In this document: positions 462-9,583 of the stretch, piece after piece
How the letters are laid out: every line of letters starts with the position of its first letter
Numbering within the stretch: position 1 is the stretch's first letter
Virus record (IMG/VR): IMGVR_UViG_3300030203_000037
Span: 1-20,063 of that record
Direction: 5' to 3' (one strand)
DNA length: 20,063 bases
From: a virus
Made by a program: the position numbers and the translations under genes
The notes under the pieces: generated by a model
What the model was told of the DNA's origin: nothing
What the model saw: the letters and a program-made list of their open reading frames with translations, nothing else
Databases searched by the model: none

Positions 462-899
462 TTACTCCCATCCGGGAATTAGCCCACCATATTTTTCTAT
501 TTCTTTATAGCTTATTATATCATTAAAATCTATTCCCAGCCCATCACATAAAAATTTAATCATTTCTCCATTGGCCTTGTCCCTTGCATATTTGTCGGGA
601 ATAATAAATTTTAATTTGGCAAATTCCTCGGGATAATATTTTCTAAATCTTTCCAATTTTGTTTTGTCTTGAAGTCGAAGATAACCTCCTTTAACTTCAA
701 CCCACGAGTCTGAAGCAGGCAAATAAAAATCTGGTTTATAATATCTTTGGCCACGCTTGATATCTTTAAATTCAAATTCTTTATATTCATAGATATAAAA
801 TTCGCGGATGTATCTATAATATCGGGCTACGTTCGCTTCTGTTTTACTTCTGAAATATTGTTTTAAATCTTCCCTGTAACCGCCTTTGGCTACTTCCAT
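462..899 (-). CDS. PD-(D/E)XK family nuclease (145 aa)
   Basis: The centre of this protein carries a clear PD-(D/E)XK nuclease core: KPDFYLP (Asp57) followed by WVEVKGG (Glu68 and Lys70), with Glu21 in SKTEANVARYY as the probable helix-1 acidic residue. Phage enzymes of this size and layout include Holliday-junction-resolvase-like and DUF1064-type nucleases. They usually process recombination or replication intermediates, or trim DNA during packaging. The ATG at 899 is preceded by AAAAGGAGCG at good spacing, directly after the stop of the small membrane protein upstream. The catalytic residues are all present, so it is probably active. The exact substrate cannot be told from the sequence. Its place after the replication module and beside a Com-like gene fits a DNA-processing role. 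Confidence 0.75.
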   Translation of the reverse strand: MEVAKGGYREDLKQYFRSKTEANVARYYRYIREFYIYEYKEFEFKDIKRGQRYYKPDFYLPASDSWVEVKGGYLRLQDKTKLERFRKYYPEEFAKLKFIIPDKYARDKANGEMIKFLCDGLGIDFNDIISYKEIEKYGGLIPGWE

Positions 900-2102: not shown

Positions 2103-2921
2103 TTAATCCACACCGTCAAGCCGGTGATCTGTCGCTATCTTTTCTTCCAGGCTCTTACCTCGGTCTATTACCTCTTTATAGAATCTCGGATAATGCTTTC
2201 GTAGACTGGCCGGGCACAGGATATTTTTGGCCCAGAATTTATCTTCTACCGCCCAATCTATTATCTTTTTTATTTCATTGGGTTTGGCTTTATCTATACG
2301 AATAAGATAATCTATATCTTTACACCAGGATTGTAATTGTCCCTCATCTCTTTTTTTAATCGATTTATTATTTTCTCTAATTTTGCCTTCTAAATAAATA
2401 GTTAATTGGTACACCACTGAATTTTTGTCAAAAAATTCTGACTTAGTATCTTCATTCTTTCCCTTCTTTCCATTATTACCATTATTGTTTATTGCCCTTA
2501 TCTTGCCCTTATCTTGCCCCTGCCTTGCCCTTTGTCTTGCCCTATAACTTTTATCACTTTGATATAAGTCATATTTTATAATGGTTATAAGAGAATACCT
2601 GCTTGCCCTTTCTATTGCCAGAAATTGCATTTTTTTTAAAAGTTTTACACAAGTACGTATTTTCTTAGTCGTAACCAGCCTATCTTTTATTTTTTTCCTT
2701 ATATGTTCGATTGAAGTTATAAAACTACCCCTCTTAATAGTAATGAATTTTTTCTGATAACTGTCCCACCATTCACCGTCTTTATGATTTGCCATCAATA
2801 CCAAATAAATAGCTATTAATTTTTGTACAGCATTTAAACTAGAAAACGTTTTGCTATTAAAAATCTTCCGGGATAGCTTTATATAACCATCTTCAATATA
2901 TTCTTTTTGGATATTAGTCAT
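2103..2921 (-). CDS. Phage replication initiator, O/DnaD-like (272 aa)
   Basis: Residues about 10-120 (GYIKLSRKIFNS ... FITSIEHIRKKI ... LLKKMQFLAIERASRYS) show the winged-helix N-terminal domain typical of phage replication initiators of the lambda-O / DnaD-like type. A low-complexity basic and Asn/Lys linker follows (about 124-160: RARQRARQGQDKGK then NNNGNNGKKGKN). The C-terminal helical domain (about 165-255) includes WCKDIDYLIR and NILCPASLRKHYPRFYKEV, often seen in DnaD-like phage proteins. The linker is encoded by tandem GGGCAA repeats, which look like origin iterons inside the gene, as in lambda O. The ATG at 2921 has only a weak site (GCAGG). The loader-like gene follows directly. 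Confidence 0.75.
   Translation of the reverse strand: MTNIQKEYIEDGYIKLSRKIFNSKTFSSLNAVQKLIAIYLVLMANHKDGEWWDSYQKKFITIKRGSFITSIEHIRKKIKDRLVTTKKIRTCVKLLKKMQFLAIERASRYSLITIIKYDLYQSDKSYRARQRARQGQDKGKIRAINNNGNNGKKGKNEDTKSEFFDKNSVVYQLTIYLEGKIRENNKSIKKRDEGQLQSWCKDIDYLIRIDKAKPNEIKKIIDWAVEDKFWAKNILCPASLRKHYPRFYKEVIDRGKSLEEKIATDHRLDGVD
2492..2542 (-). repeat. Iterons: candidate replication origin inside initiator gene
   Basis: Five copies of GGGCAA (minus strand) start every 11, 11, 11 and 12 bases; on the plus strand TTGCCC lies at 2492, 2503, 2514, 2525 and 2537. A sixth, isolated copy is at 2603-2608. The fuller unit is about AGGGCAAGATA. The spacing is close to one helical turn, so all sites face the same side of the DNA. 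An AT-rich tract encoding Asn and Lys follows downstream. This is the lambda arrangement: initiator-binding repeats plus an AT-rich melting region within the initiator gene. Confidence 0.6.
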
Positions 2922-3405: not shown

Positions 3406-3648
3406 TCACCCCCTTTTAATCAGCCCTGCCCTACTTCTCAAGGTTTTTATATCGTAGGGCAGGGACCGGCAGTCCGCAGAAATGCATAGAGAGTCGGACC
3501 GCCGGGATATTAAAATTAACCTAGTTAATCTAACCCTTTTTTTAATATTTATTTTTTTTATATCTTCTTTTAATTCCTTGCCTGATCTGTAAGATATTAA
3601 GGCTATTCCCGCGAAAATTAATATCAGAACCAAATACCACCACCACAT
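3406..3648 (-). CDS. Small membrane-anchored protein with structured 3' end (80 aa)
   Basis: The ATG at 3648 is the better start: it lies nine bases after GGGGGTG. A GTG four codons upstream (3660) is part of that binding site. The first 20 residues, MWWWYLVLILIFAGIALISY, are one hydrophobic helix, followed by a charged segment (KELKEDIKKINIKKRVRLTR). The last 35 or so codons run through two tandem 11-bp hairpins (3424-3505) and give an unconvincing sequence (SRRSDSLCISADCRSLPYD). Either the real protein ends in this odd tail, or the 3' third has been overwritten by an inserted RNA element. No family is recognised. A near-copy of its ribosome binding site recurs just after the stop codon. Confidence 0.5.
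   Translation of the reverse strand: MWWWYLVLILIFAGIALISYRSGKELKEDIKKINIKKRVRLTRLILISRRSDSLCISADCRSLPYDIKTLRSRAGLIKRG
3424..3505 (-). ncRNA. Tandem 11-bp hairpins
   Basis: Two adjacent hairpins on the minus strand. First: CCGGCGGTCCG (3495-3505) with CGGACTGCCGG (3466-3476), 11 bp including one G-U pair, loop 18 nt. Second: CCCTGCCCTAC (3454-3464) with GTAGGGCAGGG (3424-3434), 11 bp perfect, loop 19 nt. One base separates them. The G-U pair is possible only in minus-strand RNA. No T run follows. They lie inside the 3' end of a small membrane-protein frame. Confidence 0.6.
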
Positions 3649-3667
3649 TATTTTAATCACCCCCTTT

Positions 3668-3919
3668 TTAATTGAATTTTACGCTTAATTCCCTTCTGAG
3701 ATTCTTTACATCATCTAGGGTCATCCCATATCTTTTAAATTCTGCTGCTACTGCCCCTTCAGTCATCAGTTCGCAATTAAAATTCATAGTATGTGCTTCG
3801 CATCTTTGCACTATTTCGTCCCCCATATCTACATACCCTATATCAAGCCTTAATTTAGGATAAGTCTTGCTTCCTTCTATACAAAAAATTTCACCAGCCT
3901 TAATTTCAACTAATTTCAT
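3668..3919 (-). CDS. Hypothetical phage protein (83 aa)
   Basis: A small mixed alpha/beta protein: MKLVEIKAGEIFCIEGSKT, then LRLDIGYVDMGDEIVQRCEA, and a C-terminal helix with TLDDVKNLRREL. It looks like one of the small conserved orphans of phage early regions, but I cannot assign a family. The two cysteines in the first half are too far apart to suggest a metal site. The ATG at 3919 has a GGGGGG-type site (ccccccttattt on the plus strand). It is 17 bases downstream of the previous gene, so it is co-transcribed. Confidence 0.6.
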   Translation of the reverse strand: MKLVEIKAGEIFCIEGSKTYPKLRLDIGYVDMGDEIVQRCEAHTMNFNCELMTEGAVAAEFKRYGMTLDDVKNLRRELSVKFN

Positions 3920-3936
3920 TATTTAATTTACCCCCC

Positions 3937-4143
3937 TTATTTATTTACCTCAATGGCCAATCTATAATACATAACCGGCTCTTTGCTTTTTACTTTTTTC
4001 TTATTAATATCGGCAATCAAGTTCTTAAAATAATCCTCCACTTCCATTAAATCTACCCTGGTATTATTGTTAATTTTAATTTCCCGGCCTTCCCTAATAT
4101 CATTCAATAAATCTGTTACTGCAAATAATTCTTTATAGGTCAT
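3937..4143 (-). CDS. Hypothetical early protein (68 aa)
   Basis: A short, mainly helical protein (MTYKELFAVTDLLNDIREGR ... VEDYFKNLIADINKKK) ending in a strand-like segment (VMYYRLAIEVNK). No family or metal site is recognised. The ATG at 4143 has a site GAAGGGAG overlapped by one copy of an ACTATAAA repeat that recurs four times between this gene and the end of the gene upstream. It ends 17 bases before the next gene. Confidence 0.55.
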   Translation of the reverse strand: MTYKELFAVTDLLNDIREGREIKINNNTRVDLMEVEDYFKNLIADINKKKVKSKEPVMYYRLAIEVNK

Positions 4144-4144
4144 A

Positions 4145-4195
4145 TTTATAGTTCTCCCTTCTTTTTTTATAGTATTTTTATAGTTTATTTATAGT
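4145..4195 (-). repeat. Four ACTATAAA repeats at helical spacing
   Basis: The 8-mer ACTATAAA (plus TTTATAGT) occurs at 4145-4152, 4166-4173, 4177-4184 and 4188-4195. The start-to-start distances are 21, 11 and 11, close to one or two helical turns. The array covers the last codons of the Gp37/Gp68-like gene, its stop and the ribosome binding site of the next gene. It may be a protein-binding array or simple-sequence drift in AT-rich DNA. Confidence 0.35.
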
Positions 4196-4942
4196 CTTTG
4201 GAAACTCTTTCATATAACCGAATTTAGGATAATACTTTAATAAATTATCTTTTATAAAAACTGGTATTTTATGTAAGTCACAATATTTTATAATATATAG
4301 TAACCACTTTTTATCAGGTATTATTTTGTCCTTTCTATTACCTGTCTCTGCTCCAACAATGACCCAGCTAATGGCTGTCAAATCTAGGTAATAACTCAAG
4401 TCAACATTCTCTAATAGTGGCTCAAAACAAACAAATTTTAGATTATAAAGGTTATTCCTTTTAAATTCAATAAAACTCCATCTGTCCGGTTCGGGATATT
4501 TCGGAGTTCTAATAATCGTTAATCCCAACCAACAATTTTGAGGAAATTCATAATTTAGATATACAAGGGGATCTTTAGTCAAAAATTGGAAGATATGTTG
4601 CGGATATGATTTAATCTTCTCGATTACTTTTTCTATCCATTCTTCTCTCCAATGGGCTATTTCACTCATCGATCCCACAAATATTTTTTGGGCCTTTTGG
4701 GGAAATTTCTTATCGAATTGAGCCTCTAAAAATGTAGGTTTAAAATCCTTTAATCCGGATAAGTGATCACCAGTCCAGGCCCAGCTAGGATGTTTTTTCC
4801 AATGATGATTAAATTCAATTTCAATCATTCGTTTGTAACGAAATTTTGCTATCTTCCGGGCATAACAATATTCACAATGATTAAGACACCCCCATACGCT
4901 ATTCCATGTAATATCACACCAACCGATCTTATGTTTAGCCAT
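4178..4942 (-). CDS. Phage Gp37/Gp68 family protein, radical-SAM-like (254 aa)
   Basis: The N-terminus KIGWCDITWNSVWGCLNHC followed by EYCYA is the signature of the phage Gp37/Gp68 family (DUF5131, PF07505), which has a radical-SAM-type CX3CX2C cluster: here Cys19, Cys23 and Cys26. Later conserved blocks are FQFLTKDP, WLGLTI, FEPLLENVDL, WVIVGAETGNR and the PVFIKDN segment near the C-terminus. The family is predicted to bind a 4Fe-4S cluster and SAM; no reaction is established, and DNA or nucleotide modification is the usual guess. I choose the ATG at 4942, preceded by GGAGGGGATATTA, rather than an in-frame ATG nine codons upstream that lacks a site. The stop of the HNH gene overlaps this ATG by one base (TAATG). 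Both MTases and the HNH gene lie directly upstream. Confidence 0.8.
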   Translation of the reverse strand: MAKHKIGWCDITWNSVWGCLNHCEYCYARKIAKFRYKRMIEIEFNHHWKKHPSWAWTGDHLSGLKDFKPTFLEAQFDKKFPQKAQKIFVGSMSEIAHWREEWIEKVIEKIKSYPQHIFQFLTKDPLVYLNYEFPQNCWLGLTIIRTPKYPEPDRWSFIEFKRNNLYNLKFVCFEPLLENVDLSYYLDLTAISWVIVGAETGNRKDKIIPDKKWLLYIIKYCDLHKIPVFIKDNLLKYYPKFGYMKEFPKTINKL

Positions 4943-5445
4943 TAATATCCCCTCCATCTTTGCCCACATATTATTTTTTTAATTGTCGTGTGGGATGTTT
5001 CAAACAATCGCCCAATCTTACAATATGAATAACCTTGTTGATGTAATTCTCTTATCACAGGAATATCCTCTGGTTTTAATTTAGTAAACTTGCTTTCGTG
5101 TGGAATTGGCATAGTTCCGTGTTTCCACATATCATCTATATTTTGTCTCCTCGTTCCCCATTCTAAATTAGTAATATGATCATTTTGATTGTTTCCATCG
5201 AGATGTCTACTTTCATATCCTTCTGGTTTTCTACCTCTGAAGGCATTTAATACCAATAAATGAATATAGCGTTTCTTCATACCGTTGTGATTATATAAAA
5301 ATACGTACAAATATCCAGTATTTTTTTTGATTGGTTTTAAATACTTGATAGATTTTGATGAATAAACATTCCCATCTTTGCTTATAAAATATCCAGAATA
5401 ATTTTCGATTTCTATCAAATCACACCAGCCAATTTTATTTTTCAT
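4942..5445 (-). CDS. HNH homing-type endonuclease with NUMOD4-like and HTH parts (167 aa)
   Basis: Domains in order: a NUMOD4-like DNA-binding segment (about residues 8-30, ENYSGYFISKDGNVYSS); an HNH nuclease core (about 60-105) with His62 in YIHLLVLNAF, His81 in SRHLDGNNQNDH and Asn93 in ITNLEWGT; and a C-terminal helix-turn-helix (about 123-163, LKPEDIPVIRELHQQGYSY ... TIKKIICGQ). This is the plan of free-standing phage homing endonucleases, which cut a site in a related phage and spread by repair. Key HNH residues are present. The ATG at 5445 has an ideal AAAGGAGG site. The first residues, MKNKIGWCD, copy the start of the following Gp37/Gp68-like gene (MAKHKIGWCD), implying the element inserted at, and captured, that gene's 5' end. 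Confidence 0.85.
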   Translation of the reverse strand: MKNKIGWCDLIEIENYSGYFISKDGNVYSSKSIKYLKPIKKNTGYLYVFLYNHNGMKKRYIHLLVLNAFRGRKPEGYESRHLDGNNQNDHITNLEWGTRRQNIDDMWKHGTMPIPHESKFTKLKPEDIPVIRELHQQGYSYCKIGRLFETSHTTIKKIICGQRWRGY

Positions 5446-5456
5446 CTTTACCTCCT

Positions 5457-6200
5457 TTAAAAAATCCTTTGCTGGACCCGGGCTATCCTTTTATATGACA
5501 TATCTATATATTCTTTTTTTATTTCGATACCTATATATCTGCGCCCTAATGATTTGCAAGCTACTGCAGTAGTACCTGAACCAATAAAAGGATCAAGAAT
5601 TATATCATCCTTGTTTGAATGTATTTCTATTAAATGTTGTATTAAAGAAATGGGTTTTTCTGTTGGATGATTGGTTACTCCATAACAAGATTTATTAGAT
5701 GTTTCATAAAAATTATGCATTTCTTTTTGTTGTTTGAAATTGAATGTTTTAAATTTGCCCTTACTACCAATCCATATAAATTCACAAGCACTTAAATAGT
5801 TGACCTTACGGAAAGATGGGACAGGATTGGTTTTATGCCAAGTAAATATCGTTCTCGTTCTTACTCCATATTCTTTGCTTATCCAATTCAAATAACTTAT
5901 ATCTTCTTTATTAAAAAATGATATAATCGTTCCATTTGTTTTTAATATTCGACAACATTCTTTTAACCAATTCTTTGTAAAAGATAAAAATTCTTCTCTT
6001 TTCATATTGTCCCAATCACCAAAATCATAGTTTAAAGATTTTTTTCTTCTCATAATCGGAGAATTTAATTTACTTCTATCTCTGTTATCGTTTAGTTTAG
6101 AAATATTATATGGTGGATCGGCCAATATCATATCTACATAGTTATCTGGTAACTTCGGTAATTCGGTTATAGCGTTTCCTAAAATTATTGTGTTAATCAT
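5457..6200 (-). CDS. DNA amino-methyltransferase, DPPY type (247 aa)
   Basis: A beta-class N6-adenine / N4-cytosine DNA methyltransferase. Catalytic motif IV ADPPYN lies at about residues 27-32 and the SAM-binding motif I DPFIGSGTTAVA at about 203-214, with HPTEKP at 178-183 just before it. This circular order (IV then I) defines the class. DPPY favours adenine as the target. The length is normal for a solitary phage enzyme and no restriction subunit is next to it. It likely protects phage DNA or changes expression. The ATG at 6200 has AAAGGAAG. The gene follows the m5C enzyme by 13 bases, and the two genes end in a near-identical 3' sequence encoding KRIARV. Recognition sequence unknown. Confidence 0.92.
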   Translation of the reverse strand: MINTIILGNAITELPKLPDNYVDMILADPPYNISKLNDNRDRSKLNSPIMRRKKSLNYDFGDWDNMKREEFLSFTKNWLKECCRILKTNGTIISFFNKEDISYLNWISKEYGVRTRTIFTWHKTNPVPSFRKVNYLSACEFIWIGSKGKFKTFNFKQQKEMHNFYETSNKSCYGVTNHPTEKPISLIQHLIEIHSNKDDIILDPFIGSGTTAVACKSLGRRYIGIEIKKEYIDMSYKRIARVQQRIF

Positions 6201-6213
6201 TAATAAACTTCCT

Positions 6214-7335
6214 TTAGCTCGAAACCCGAGCTATCCTTTTACCAATTTCCGTTATTACATTTACAGTTACCGCATTACCTAAACATTTATACCTTTGTGT
6301 ATCGCTTATTCCTTCTGTCCAACCATCAGGAAAGCCCTGTAATCTTTCGCACTCGGTAGGAGTTAAGCGCCTAATTTGTCCTATTGCATCATTTATATTA
6401 TCTACTGATTTTAAAAACTCTTTGCTGCTGCCCTGCCTTGTTCCTGTTGCTTCGGTTAAAGTATTCATTATTATATTTAATTTATTATCGGATCTATCAC
6501 TAGGTATAGAACATATTATTCCATTTGTTTTATATGCTCTATCTTGTTGAGATTTATGCCCCTTTCCCGATGTATCCCATTGAGTTTTCTTTATGATAAA
6601 CGTACCGTGGTTCTGATTTCTACCTTCTCCTGGCTTTATACAACCACTCGTTTGCCTTTCATCACTCTCATTATCCTCTTGCATTGTGCTTCCGAGAGGA
6701 AATACTTTTTGTCCACCTGTTCCTCTAAGATGTCCGATAATGTACACCCTTTCCCGGTGCTGTGGGACGGCATAATTCTTGCTGTTAAACACTTCCCATT
6801 CAAGGTCATACCCCAATTCTGAAAGTGAACTGAGGATAATGGCGAAAGTCCTCCCCTCATCGTGATTGAGAAGCCCTTTGACGTTTTCAAGCAAAAGTAG
6901 TTGAGGCCTCTTAACTTTCGCAATCCTGCATATCTCGAAGAACACAATTCCCCGAGGATCTTTGAATCCTTTTCTTTTTCCAGCAATACTGTAAGAAGGG
7001 CAGGGAAATCCTGCGGTGAGCATTTCGTGATCCGGAATAGTTTCAGCTGGGACATCGCAGATATCTCTTGTGTTGAGTTCTTTTTCCCCAAATTGCTTTT
7101 GGTAGATTTTCCAGGCCCAACACTTTTCTTTTTTGTATGGGTCATACGTCCATTCGTTGGCCCACACACAAGAAAATTGTTTCGTTCCCAAGAATGGCTT
7201 GACAATGGTGTCGTTACTTTTACTTTCTTGTTGAATCCTTTGTTGTGTCCTCTCGGTAATTGTATCATTCGCTTTTTCAAGCCCATATCTAAATCCTCCT
7301 ATTCCCGCAAATAATTCTATATATCTAATCTCCAT
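6214..7335 (-). CDS. DNA (cytosine-5) methyltransferase (373 aa)
   Basis: All core m5C methyltransferase motifs are present: I, FAGIGGFRYGLE (residues 9-20); IV, GFPCPSYS with catalytic Cys112; VI, ENVKGL (150-155); VIII, QHRERVYIIG (192-201); IX, RRLTPTECERLQGFPDGW near the C-terminus; X, GNAVTV. The target-recognition region lies about 205-320 and is polar. An extra polar stretch (about 22-50, rich in Thr, Gln and Ser) follows motif I. The ATG at 7335 has GGATAGGAATT upstream. The middle of the gene (about 6640-7290) is distinctly richer in G and C than its neighbours and stays open in other frames, suggesting this core was acquired more recently than the flanks. It is probably a solitary protective enzyme; specificity unknown. 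Confidence 0.93.
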   Translation of the reverse strand: MEIRYIELFAGIGGFRYGLEKANDTITERTQQRIQQESKSNDTIVKPFLGTKQFSCVWANEWTYDPYKKEKCWAWKIYQKQFGEKELNTRDICDVPAETIPDHEMLTAGFPCPSYSIAGKRKGFKDPRGIVFFEICRIAKVKRPQLLLLENVKGLLNHDEGRTFAIILSSLSELGYDLEWEVFNSKNYAVPQHRERVYIIGHLRGTGGQKVFPLGSTMQEDNESDERQTSGCIKPGEGRNQNHGTFIIKKTQWDTSGKGHKSQQDRAYKTNGIICSIPSDRSDNKLNIIMNTLTEATGTRQGSSKEFLKSVDNINDAIGQIRRLTPTECERLQGFPDGWTEGISDTQRYKCLGNAVTVNVITEIGKRIARVSS

Positions 7336-7816: not shown

Positions 7817-8650
7817 TTAAATCCCCCTTTCTATAAACTTATTCAATTTGTCTTTCTCATCTTTCTCTCTTCTTAGTGTTTGTGCCAAATAGCCTTCATG
7901 AATATTTTGCAGTATACAACCTTCAACAATCCTTCTGAGTACGTCCGGGGGTAGAGAATCAAGTTCTACCACCATATCGGAGCCATAGATATTAACGAAT
8001 TTATTATAATTAGGATCACTTTGTTTGGCTGGGTCAGAAGGTAATCGATATTCTTTTATCTGTTCCTGGGTTAAAGCGATCCTTTCGAAATTGATAAATA
8101 CGCCAAAATCCATAACTCTTTTTTTTATCGAATCGTAAATAGATAATCCCGAAGGGTCGAAATCACCACAATAATATAGGTGGCACTTTTTATCGCTTTG
8201 GGCTTTATATCTCCCGGCAGTCCTATATACTTCCGTCCGGGATAACTGTCCTCTGGCCACCATTAGAGAAACATCATATCGGTAGGTAATCTCAGTCAAG
8301 ACACTTCGCAGGGCATCCTTTTCAGTCCAGATTTCTAAGTAATTATCCTGGTTTTGCCATTTATCTTTACGGTAGGATCTTTTAACTACTTTCATAAATT
8401 CATTAAGATCGGTCCAGGAGCCTAACTTATCTATTACCCTTAATCGATCAGCAAAACCTTCCTCCGGTAATATCCCCTCATCCCTACCCGATACGCAAAG
8501 CCGGGACAGTTTTTTATAATATCTTTGCTCGTTGGGGATGATCTGTCTGGCCACCAATTGATAATATATTTGCCTAAGTGTTAGAGCAAAATCATAATTA
8601 CTTATTATTTTTTGTACTTGTGTCAAAAGTTCTAAAGATTGCTTTTGCAC
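7817..8650 (-). CDS. Spo11/TopoVI-A-like protein, Mini-A type (277 aa)
   Basis: The sequence reads like a shortened topoisomerase VI A subunit. Residues 24-32, TLRQIYYQL, match the 5Y-CAP motif around the catalytic tyrosine (Tyr30, or Tyr29). The downstream helix (YYKKLSRLCVSGRDEGILPE, 44-63) fits the same winged-helix domain. A Toprim domain follows, with Glu110 in WTEKDALR and the acidic pair Asp163/Asp165 in GDFDPSG, the metal-binding positions. Spo11 and TopoVI-A cut DNA through a 5'-phosphotyrosyl link. Mini-A proteins are stand-alone homologues on mobile elements without a known ATPase partner, and none is visible here. The start is GTG at 8650 with AAGGGG upstream; an in-frame stop lies just before. 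A role in phage replication or recombination is inference. Confidence 0.78.
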   Translation of the reverse strand: MQKQSLELLTQVQKIISNYDFALTLRQIYYQLVARQIIPNEQRYYKKLSRLCVSGRDEGILPEEGFADRLRVIDKLGSWTDLNEFMKVVKRSYRKDKWQNQDNYLEIWTEKDALRSVLTEITYRYDVSLMVARGQLSRTEVYRTAGRYKAQSDKKCHLYYCGDFDPSGLSIYDSIKKRVMDFGVFINFERIALTQEQIKEYRLPSDPAKQSDPNYNKFVNIYGSDMVVELDSLPPDVLRRIVEGCILQNIHEGYLAQTLRREKDEKDKLNKFIERGI

Positions 8651-8679: not shown

Positions 8680-8913
8680 TCAATTAGAATGATTAGTCTT
8701 TTCATATTCTACATAACCTTTATTTTCGCAATCCTCTAACTTACACCATTTCGGAAAGTGGCCTCTCATAATTAAATCTTTATTTAATATTCTAAAACTA
8801 CCATTTTTTCTCCTGGAATCCGGGTTGATGCATCTAAATCTATTTATCTTAATTCCTAGAAAAAATTTATTAAATTTACAAGCAAGACAATAATGAATTC
8901 TCATTAATTTCAA
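8680..8913 (-). CDS. Cys-rich small protein, likely zinc-binding (77 aa)
   Basis: Cysteines occur as YCLAC near the N-terminus, one in RFRCINP and a pair in KWCKLEDC. This spacing suggests one zinc site formed by distant pairs. I favour the TTG at 8913 as the start, 8 bases after GAGAGGGGG; an ATG three codons later would be 17 bases away. The binding site lies in the end of the gene upstream, only 5 bases before, so the two are translated together. No family is recognised. It is one of several Cys-rich small proteins just upstream of the TopoVI-A-like gene. Confidence 0.55.
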   Translation of the reverse strand: MKLMRIHYCLACKFNKFFLGIKINRFRCINPDSRRKNGSFRILNKDLIMRGHFPKWCKLEDCENKGYVEYEKTNHSN

Positions 8914-8918
8914 CTATT

Positions 8919-9125
8919 TTACCCCCTCTCAATTGCTCTTTTTAATTCAGCTTTTTCACTATAATAATCGTATATTCCCTTGCCTCTTTTAAGGCCATGG
9001 CCACATTTTGGACAGCAGTATTGATTTAATTTGTGACCCTGTTCGTGAGTATATTTTGAAATTTTTTGTCCGACTGCTGCCTTCCCTTCCCAGCCACAAT
9101 AACCACAAATTACCTTTATATTCAA
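8919..9125 (-). CDS. Zinc-ribbon protein (68 aa)
   Basis: Two knuckles, ICGYCGWEG (C-x2-C) near the N-terminus and YCCPKCGHG (C-x2-C) about 30 residues later, give a classical zinc ribbon of the rubredoxin or transcription-factor type. The C-terminal third is a charged helix (YYSEKAELKRAIERG). The start is TTG at 9125, placed by an ideal GGGAGG nine bases before it. Such ribbons in phage early operons usually bind nucleic acid or protein partners, but nothing in the sequence tells which. It is co-transcribed with the Cys-rich gene that follows five bases later. Confidence 0.65.
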   Translation of the reverse strand: MNIKVICGYCGWEGKAAVGQKISKYTHEQGHKLNQYCCPKCGHGLKRGKGIYDYYSEKAELKRAIERG

Positions 9126-9253: not shown

Positions 9254-9272
9254 TGTCCCATTTCAAGGGACA
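9254..9272 (-). other. Short hairpin over stop codon
   Basis: Minus strand: TGTCCC (9267-9272) and GGGACA (9254-9259), 6 bp with a 7-nt loop, cover the last codons and stop of the Cys-containing gene. A run of six T follows about 14 bases later, too far for a standard intrinsic terminator. It may partly attenuate or stabilise the 3' end. Confidence 0.35.
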
Positions 9273-9583
9273 TTAATTTCTTCTTGTAAAATTCCCGATT
9301 TATTCAATATAAATTTTTTTCCTGTCCATACAAAACCATTCACTAAATGTCTGCATTTTCCACTTTTCCCATTGCAGGGATTATATTTTTGGCAATCAAG
9401 ACCACAGAAACCCTGTTCTATAAATTCTTGATCTTCTTTACACCACATTTCCCCGCCATAATCTCTTCTCATCTCTAATAGTTTTACCTCTTTTAAATCC
9501 TCATCTATCATGCTTTTGAAATAATCTAATGTATAAACTATTTCACCACAACCTTCTTCCATAAAATATTTCATTTCCCCCAT
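9263..9583 (-). CDS. Cys-containing hypothetical protein (106 aa)
   Basis: The C-terminal half has a tight cysteine cluster: FCGLDCQKYNPCNGKSGKC, then HLVNG. It also has single cysteines at EEGCGE and MWCKED. The spacing C-x3-C-x5-C-x6-C suggests a metal-binding or Fe-S-like knuckle rather than disulfides, since there is no signal peptide. The first half is acidic and helical. Two ATGs three codons apart (9583 and 9574) compete; AGGG lies upstream of both. Function unknown. It belongs to the run of small Cys-rich early proteins. Confidence 0.55.
   Translation of the reverse strand: MGEMKYFMEEGCGEIVYTLDYFKSMIDEDLKEVKLLEMRRDYGGEMWCKEDQEFIEQGFCGLDCQKYNPCNGKSGKCRHLVNGFVWTGKKFILNKSGILQEEINVP

Follow-up and report, generated by a model that had tools for sequence, protein, structure and literature searches.

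What might a phage do with a type IIB topoisomerase that is reduced to its DNA-cleaving half, the ATPase half apparently missing? The question is raised by a gene for a 277-residue protein in the stretch of DNA analysed here (the window), which covers positions 1 to 20,063 of a virus record of 30,824 bases (IMGVR_UViG_3300030203_000037, here G000) that is probably incomplete. An initial annotation had described a Mini-A protein, related to Spo11 and to the A subunit of topoisomerase VI (Topo VI-A), encoded in an early operon without a B subunit. The open reading frame was placed correctly, on the minus strand (Table 1), and the motifs quoted for it (TLRQIYYQL, WTEKDALR and GDFDPSG) are all found there, far beyond chance expectation; a relative (L003) has an ATG in line with the GTG start, which supports the latter. 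The early operon is plausible, as Mini-A, the Cys-rich genes upstream of it and the replication genes, among them the helicase loader, share one strand.

Table 1. Positions of Mini-A, its predicted functional residues and neighbouring genes (window coordinates, except in the last row, where the record is named).
Feature	Position	Strand	Remarks
Mini-A gene, 277 aa, Topo VI-A/Spo11-like	7817..8650	minus	GTG start 8650, stop 7817
N-terminal winged-helix-like (5Y-CAP) region, residues 1-75	8426..8650	minus	HHalign register and model helices
Tyr30 codon, predicted catalytic tyrosine	8561..8563	minus	Tyr in 89/89 covering rows
Toprim domain (predicted), residues 100-250	7901..8353	minus	VIA-align matches
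Glu110 codon, Toprim acid	8321..8323	minus	89/90 rows
Asp163-x-Asp165 codons, Toprim DxD within GDFDPSG	8156..8164	minus	D163 90/90, D165 88/90 rows
77-aa Cys-rich gene directly upstream of Mini-A	8680..8913	minus	homologues in L242, L250, L253 and L254, which lack Mini-A
68-aa zinc-ribbon-like gene	8919..9125	minus	no homologue detected in fetched loci
106-aa Cys-containing gene	9263..9583	minus	54% homologue in L251, which lacks Mini-A
Replication initiation O-like/DnaD-like helicase loader	2103..2921	minus	phrog_2514 E 2e-46
Holliday-junction-resolvase/endonuclease-like protein, same replication module	462..899	minus	phrog_9019 E 4.5e-9, phrog_945 E 1.3e-8
DUF5131 gene, conserved marker at the border of the variable early region (Mini-A or substitutes)	4178..4969	minus	PF07505 E 2e-31; in 7/8 compared genomes
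Predicted lipoprotein/exported genes	G453 20232-21461; G451 19945-20583; G449 3447-3989; L002 889-1509

Family membership and predicted active site

The protein is matched over residues 2-274 by PHROG 6247, 'DNA topoisomerase' (E 1.1e-67), and in a tblastn search it was 33% identical to the Mini-A of Pseudomonas phage NP1 (gp49; E 2e-34), which a review draws as an example of the family (PMC7614492). Given these two similarities, the protein is almost certainly a member of the published Mini-A family; the identity proposed by the initial annotation is borne out by them and by the Toprim fold described below. An archaeal plasmid annotated as encoding Topo Mini-A (LC711082) also matches (E 1e-36). 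No Pfam model scored above the cut-off, and sub-threshold matches to DUF2399 and JetD_C fell on the Toprim part. Mini-A was described by Takahashi et al. 2020, as relayed in three reviews (PMC7614492, PMC8185306, PMC8084294); topoisomerase reviews state its function as unknown, and we found no biochemistry for any Mini-A in the literature.

Carriers of Mini-A include phages of many bacterial groups, plasmids and archaeal elements. The window protein retrieved 76 phage and 60 plasmid records by tblastn, with about 25-35% identity among the matches listed, and a profile scan of IMG/VR confirmed at least 564 relatives in viral contigs. Streptomyces plasmids make up 49 of the 60 plasmid records. 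The window protein resembles NP1 Mini-A in size class, 5Y-CAP tyrosine, Toprim acids, lack of a B subunit and location on a mobile element, but it is about 22 residues shorter, belongs to a divergent, archaea-rich clade and has a different gene neighbourhood.

Residues T24, R26, Q27, Y29, Y30, E110, K111, D163, D165, P166, S167 and G168 were invariant in an alignment of 78 sequences. In a more diverse alignment of 90 rows, to which archaeal and named rows had been added, Tyr30 was retained in every row covering that position, whereas Tyr29 was replaced by W, F or C in five rows; the conservation of the Toprim acids in the same rows is given in Table 1. Both alignments bear out the complete set of 5Y-CAP and Toprim residues listed by the initial annotation, which had staked its reading on conservation at Tyr29/30. 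By sequence, Tyr30, not Tyr29, is the fixed tyrosine of Mini-A. In mouse SPO11, too, catalysis falls to the second of two tandem tyrosines (Y138), and in yeast the first position is occupied by Phe (PMC11922746). We infer from the fixed Tyr30, the variable Tyr29 and the same second-tyrosine rule in SPO11 that Tyr30 is the nucleophile. By analogy with these enzymes, it is quite likely that Mini-A performs Tyr30-dependent DNA cleavage.

An AlphaFold model built from a single sequence had a pLDDT of only 37, so the model from the 78-sequence alignment was used instead (pLDDT 92, pTM 0.85). Foldseek alone gave no significant match of this model to the PDB, and a structure search of BFVD returned mostly primase/Toprim noise; the Toprim relatives came from a second look with VIA-align, which matched MksG (8b7f, Z 10.9), Topo VI-A (1d3y, Z 10.8), JetD (7til, Z 10.8), Methanosarcina mazei Topo VI (up to Z 10.6) and Spo11 (8uru, Z 8.9). 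According to the model, Mini-A has a Toprim fold. All of these matches cover residues from about 96 to 250/251, the Toprim half, and leave the winged-helix half unaligned. For the latter, HHalign (runs without realignment) placed TLRQIYY of Mini-A on TLREIYY of 24 archaeal Topo VI-A proteins, two collinear matches put both Mini-A motifs in register with Topo VI-A, and the model predicts helices at residues 3-17, 25-34 and 42-57. The register and the helices, which are in place, are compatible with a winged-helix-like N-terminal half. The initial annotation had proposed structure prediction against Topo VI-A and Spo11 as a check: the Toprim part of its expectation is matched by both structures, and register and helices would fit the winged helix, the structural alignments being confined to the Toprim half.

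The similarity to Topo VI-A thus comprises the order of motifs and the Toprim fold, but sequence similarity is barely detectable (Topo VI-A is the top PDB sequence match, with E 0.14 and 1.5), there is no B subunit, and the N-terminus is short: relative to the tyrosine, Mini-A begins about 70 residues later (Y30 versus Y99 in L095, by HHalign). Spo11 has the second-tyrosine rule and the Toprim fold in common with Mini-A, which is, however, a phage gene, not an orthologue, and has no meiotic partners. With the JetD/MksG/DUF2399 nucleases, Mini-A has the Toprim fold in common, and their profiles match it weakly (for JetD, E 7e-7 over the Toprim part), but it differs from them in its invariant tyrosine and in having no recurrent SMC neighbour. 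As JetD and MksG are nucleases with the same fold, Mini-A could also be a plain nuclease.

Gene neighbourhood and the B subunit

Topo VI is an A2B2 enzyme that performs strand passage with an ATPase B subunit, which also controls cleavage (PMC13040014). We found no HATPase_c domain (PF02518) in the 30.8-kb record of the window phage, which is probably incomplete, or in 49 other viral, phage and plasmid records with Mini-A, many of which are fragments. The sole match among 50 handles was to the archaeal cell genome behind one of them (L007), on other contigs. The model matched all of 14 positive control genomes, although a divergent GHKL domain could escape it. The initial annotation was therefore right about the missing B subunit, which, being absent from the phage's own record and from 49 other Mini-A elements, appears to be a family trait. 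Topo VIII, also a type IIB enzyme of mobile elements, has A and B parts, usually fused; Mini-A, in contrast, has 277 residues with winged-helix-like and Toprim parts only and no GHKL domain.

Because the B subunit governs cleavage in Topo VI, an A-type protein on its own may depend on a host-encoded or unrecognised partner. SPO11 alone, however, cuts DNA in vitro, can reseal nicks and yields topoisomers (PMC11922746), so in principle no partner is needed, and on balance we think that Mini-A works without a dedicated phage partner. Activation by a host protein, for example a GHKL or SMC-type ATPase, would fit the dependence of Topo VI on its B subunit, and cells always have GHKL proteins (all 14 controls). 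We consider it quite unlikely, given that SPO11 cuts DNA unaided and that Mini-A is found in phages of many bacterial groups as well as in archaeal elements, so that a single host partner would have to be conserved across the two domains. The initial annotation had proposed another solution, in which the small Cys-rich proteins encoded next to Mini-A are dedicated partners that replace the B subunit. The three genes do exist (Table 1); they lie upstream on the same strand, the 77-aa gene directly so, and have zinc-ribbon-like motifs. Small genes with two CxxC motifs, however, were not enriched beside Mini-A (12/169 near it, 21/359 farther away), and the 77-aa and 106-aa genes have homologues in phages that lack Mini-A, which led us to reject this idea as highly improbable. 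The 68-aa gene had no detectable homologue in the fetched loci. In L002-L004, a different small Cys gene lies downstream of Mini-A, and this too has homologues in viruses without Mini-A (G445, G453 and G454).

The neighbour comparison that the initial annotation had suggested for Cys-rich genes did not reveal any other constant companion: across 88 loci, no gene family recurred beside Mini-A in more than 16. An SNF2 helicase and an integrase were the most frequent neighbours, yet with only 16 of 88 loci each they were rejected as obligate partners, and no recurring SMC gene was found in these comparisons. Profile scans of 150 near neighbours identified small numbers of helicases, exonucleases, RusA resolvase, primases and thymidylate synthases. 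The neighbours in phage NP1 are a ligase, the Sak4 annealing protein, a Cas4 exonuclease and a helicase, and several prophage-like loci have the integrase and repressor followed by Mini-A as the first gene reading rightward.

Two other features of the window's early region were noted. Neighbouring N6/N4- and C5-DNA methyltransferase genes (5457-7335) have no obvious restriction partner, and relatives of this region carry other methyltransferases. The DUF5131 gene, conserved in the virus group, also adjoins Mini-A in the unrelated viruses L063 and L068, and its product matches the PADLOC candidate defence models PDC-M30B and PDC-M41B (E 6e-30).

Sister viruses and archaeal relatives

A search of IMG/VR with the major capsid protein yielded about 50 close relatives of the window phage. 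Six relatives are 35-38 kb long, and of these G002 alone has Mini-A (G445, G449, G451, G453 and G454 do not); Mini-A is therefore, judging from these sequences and subject to contig completeness, an accessory gene in the group of viruses to which the window phage belongs. Most viruses without Mini-A carry, in the early region between cluster c17 and the DUF5131 gene, a Gp3-like protein (PF18897, E 1.4e-24) that resembles recombination directionality factors (RDFs); the gene before it often encodes a Mu-Gam-like end-protection protein or an SbcC-like ATPase. Mini-A and the Gp3-like gene did not co-occur in any of 18 group records: 13 have the Gp3-like gene but not Mini-A, 4 have Mini-A but not the Gp3-like gene and G453 has neither, in a sample (4 versus 13) that includes many fragments and most of whose records were retrieved with one or the other gene as the query. 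On the capsid tree, the two types are intermingled, which forces at least two changes. In the sequences compared, Mini-A alternates with Gp3-like, Mu-Gam-like and SbcC-like genes in sister phages; in G001, it is displaced by one or two genes from the Gp3-like position and is not in exactly the same interval, and G026, a Mini-A virus outside the group, has a Gp3-like gene too. This alternation and the archaeal affinity of Mini-A described below are the new points of this work.

The RDFs of phiC31 and Bxb1 act in phage replication as well as in excision (PMC5311408). No serine recombinase was found in 21 records of the group, and the Gp3-like protein was accordingly rejected as the RDF of a resident serine integrase. 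With RDFs active in replication and no serine recombinase in these records, a replication or recombination role of the swapped genes would be the simplest reading.

The Gp3-like proteins (L241-L254, G445, G449, G451 and G454) are about 500-546 residues long; PF18897 covers the first half, and the second half is an uncharacterised charged extension. PHROG gave no match to the full-length protein, and the first 280 residues had none in the phage collection. A tyrosine recombinase of about 200 residues is encoded in G001, G002, G003, G451, G453 and G459; its presence in 3 of 4 Mini-A records (all but the truncated G000) and in 2 of 13 Gp3-like records could be due to chance or fragmentation. The early regions also encode predicted lipoproteins or exported proteins (lipobox-like signal peptides, recognised by eye; Table 1), which is unusual for a replication module.

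The window Mini-A forms a clade with those of L002-L004, and the sister of this clade is the copy on L007, a contig of the archaeon Candidatus Methanolliviera hydrocarbonicum (65% identity to the window protein; support of the joint clade 100/97), which is the closest non-phage relative. Archaeal copies abound in the wider Mini-A clade, although several of their branches are long and unsure in placement. L007 (12.8 kb) looks like an archaeal mobile element, because it encodes, besides Mini-A and a Xer-like protein, a TFB-like protein, an Orc1/Cdc6-like ATPase (read from translations) and a primase-polymerase/D5-type protein. An archaeal host of the window phage was rejected: comparison of the window with 393 genomes of the Methanolliviera phylum returned only the Mini-A gene and noise-level AT-rich matches. 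The phage itself looks bacterial from its gene content, as the DnaD-like helicase loader is closest mostly to those of Bacillota phages, the portal is closest to Bacillus phages and an M15 peptidase is present. The archaeal affinity likely stems from gene exchange between elements of the two domains, in either direction.

Possible function

The explanation that we prefer, with somewhat better than even confidence, is that Mini-A is an enzyme that acts alone, as a dimer, cleaves DNA in the manner of Spo11 and contributes to phage replication or recombination. It would represent the part of a type IIB topoisomerase that cleaves DNA, retained by a mobile element that lacks the ATPase subunit. As in Topo VI and Spo11, two copies probably assemble on duplex DNA and form a hybrid active site, in which Tyr30 of one copy would attack a strand held in the Toprim metal pocket of the other (Glu110, Asp163 and Asp165). 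Such covalent cleavage would be ATP-independent and would leave the protein attached to the 5' ends of a nick or of a staggered double-strand break. The phage would express Mini-A early and use the nick or break in its own DNA replication or recombination, possibly for DNA relaxation or for starting recombination-dependent replication. The replication and recombination genes near Mini-A in other elements, and the genes that stand in its place in sister viruses, speak for this use. The role in replication or recombination, taken by itself, is a tentative proposal that falls just short of an even chance. The more specific version, an ATP-independent break maker that starts recombination-dependent replication and is interchangeable with the cassette of Gp3-like and Mu-Gam-like or SbcC-like genes, we regard as rather unlikely.

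Mini-A might instead act as an ATP-independent topoisomerase, which nicks and reseals phage DNA and relaxes supercoils during replication without lasting breaks. The PHROG name, the presence of homologues on many plasmids, which must replicate too, the relaxation of DNA without ATP by M. marina Topo VIII (PMC7614492) and the resealing activity of SPO11 all speak for this possibility. The annotation comes from homology only, however, there is no ATPase to control strand passage, and the genes that substitute for Mini-A in sister phages are DNA-end and recombination genes rather than topoisomerases; relaxation without lasting breaks is thus rather unlikely. We consider it improbable that Mini-A is a nuclease that cuts the DNA of the host, a plasmid or a rival phage in the manner of JetD and MksG, even though these two are among its top fold matches, JetD profiles match its Toprim part and the two DNA methyltransferases in the window could mark self DNA. 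JetD and MksG are described as working with SMC complexes (JetABC and MksBEF; PMC10123090, PMC10586767), whereas Mini-A has no recurrent neighbour; nor do the methyltransferases accompany it constantly, and a plain Toprim nuclease would not need the invariant tyrosine.

Mini-A emerges as a widespread, biochemically uncharacterised branch of the Topo VI/Spo11 family, with at least 560 viral loci in addition to those in phages, plasmids and archaeal elements. Three results sharpen its 'topoisomerase' label: the lack of a B subunit across 50 elements, the fixed second tyrosine and the alternation in sister phages. If Mini-A is indeed a stand-alone break maker, programmed breaks of the Spo11 type would occur in bacterial and archaeal viruses and plasmids, outside meiosis, and a Spo11-like enzyme made of one gene would be a useful model for the origin of the meiotic enzyme.
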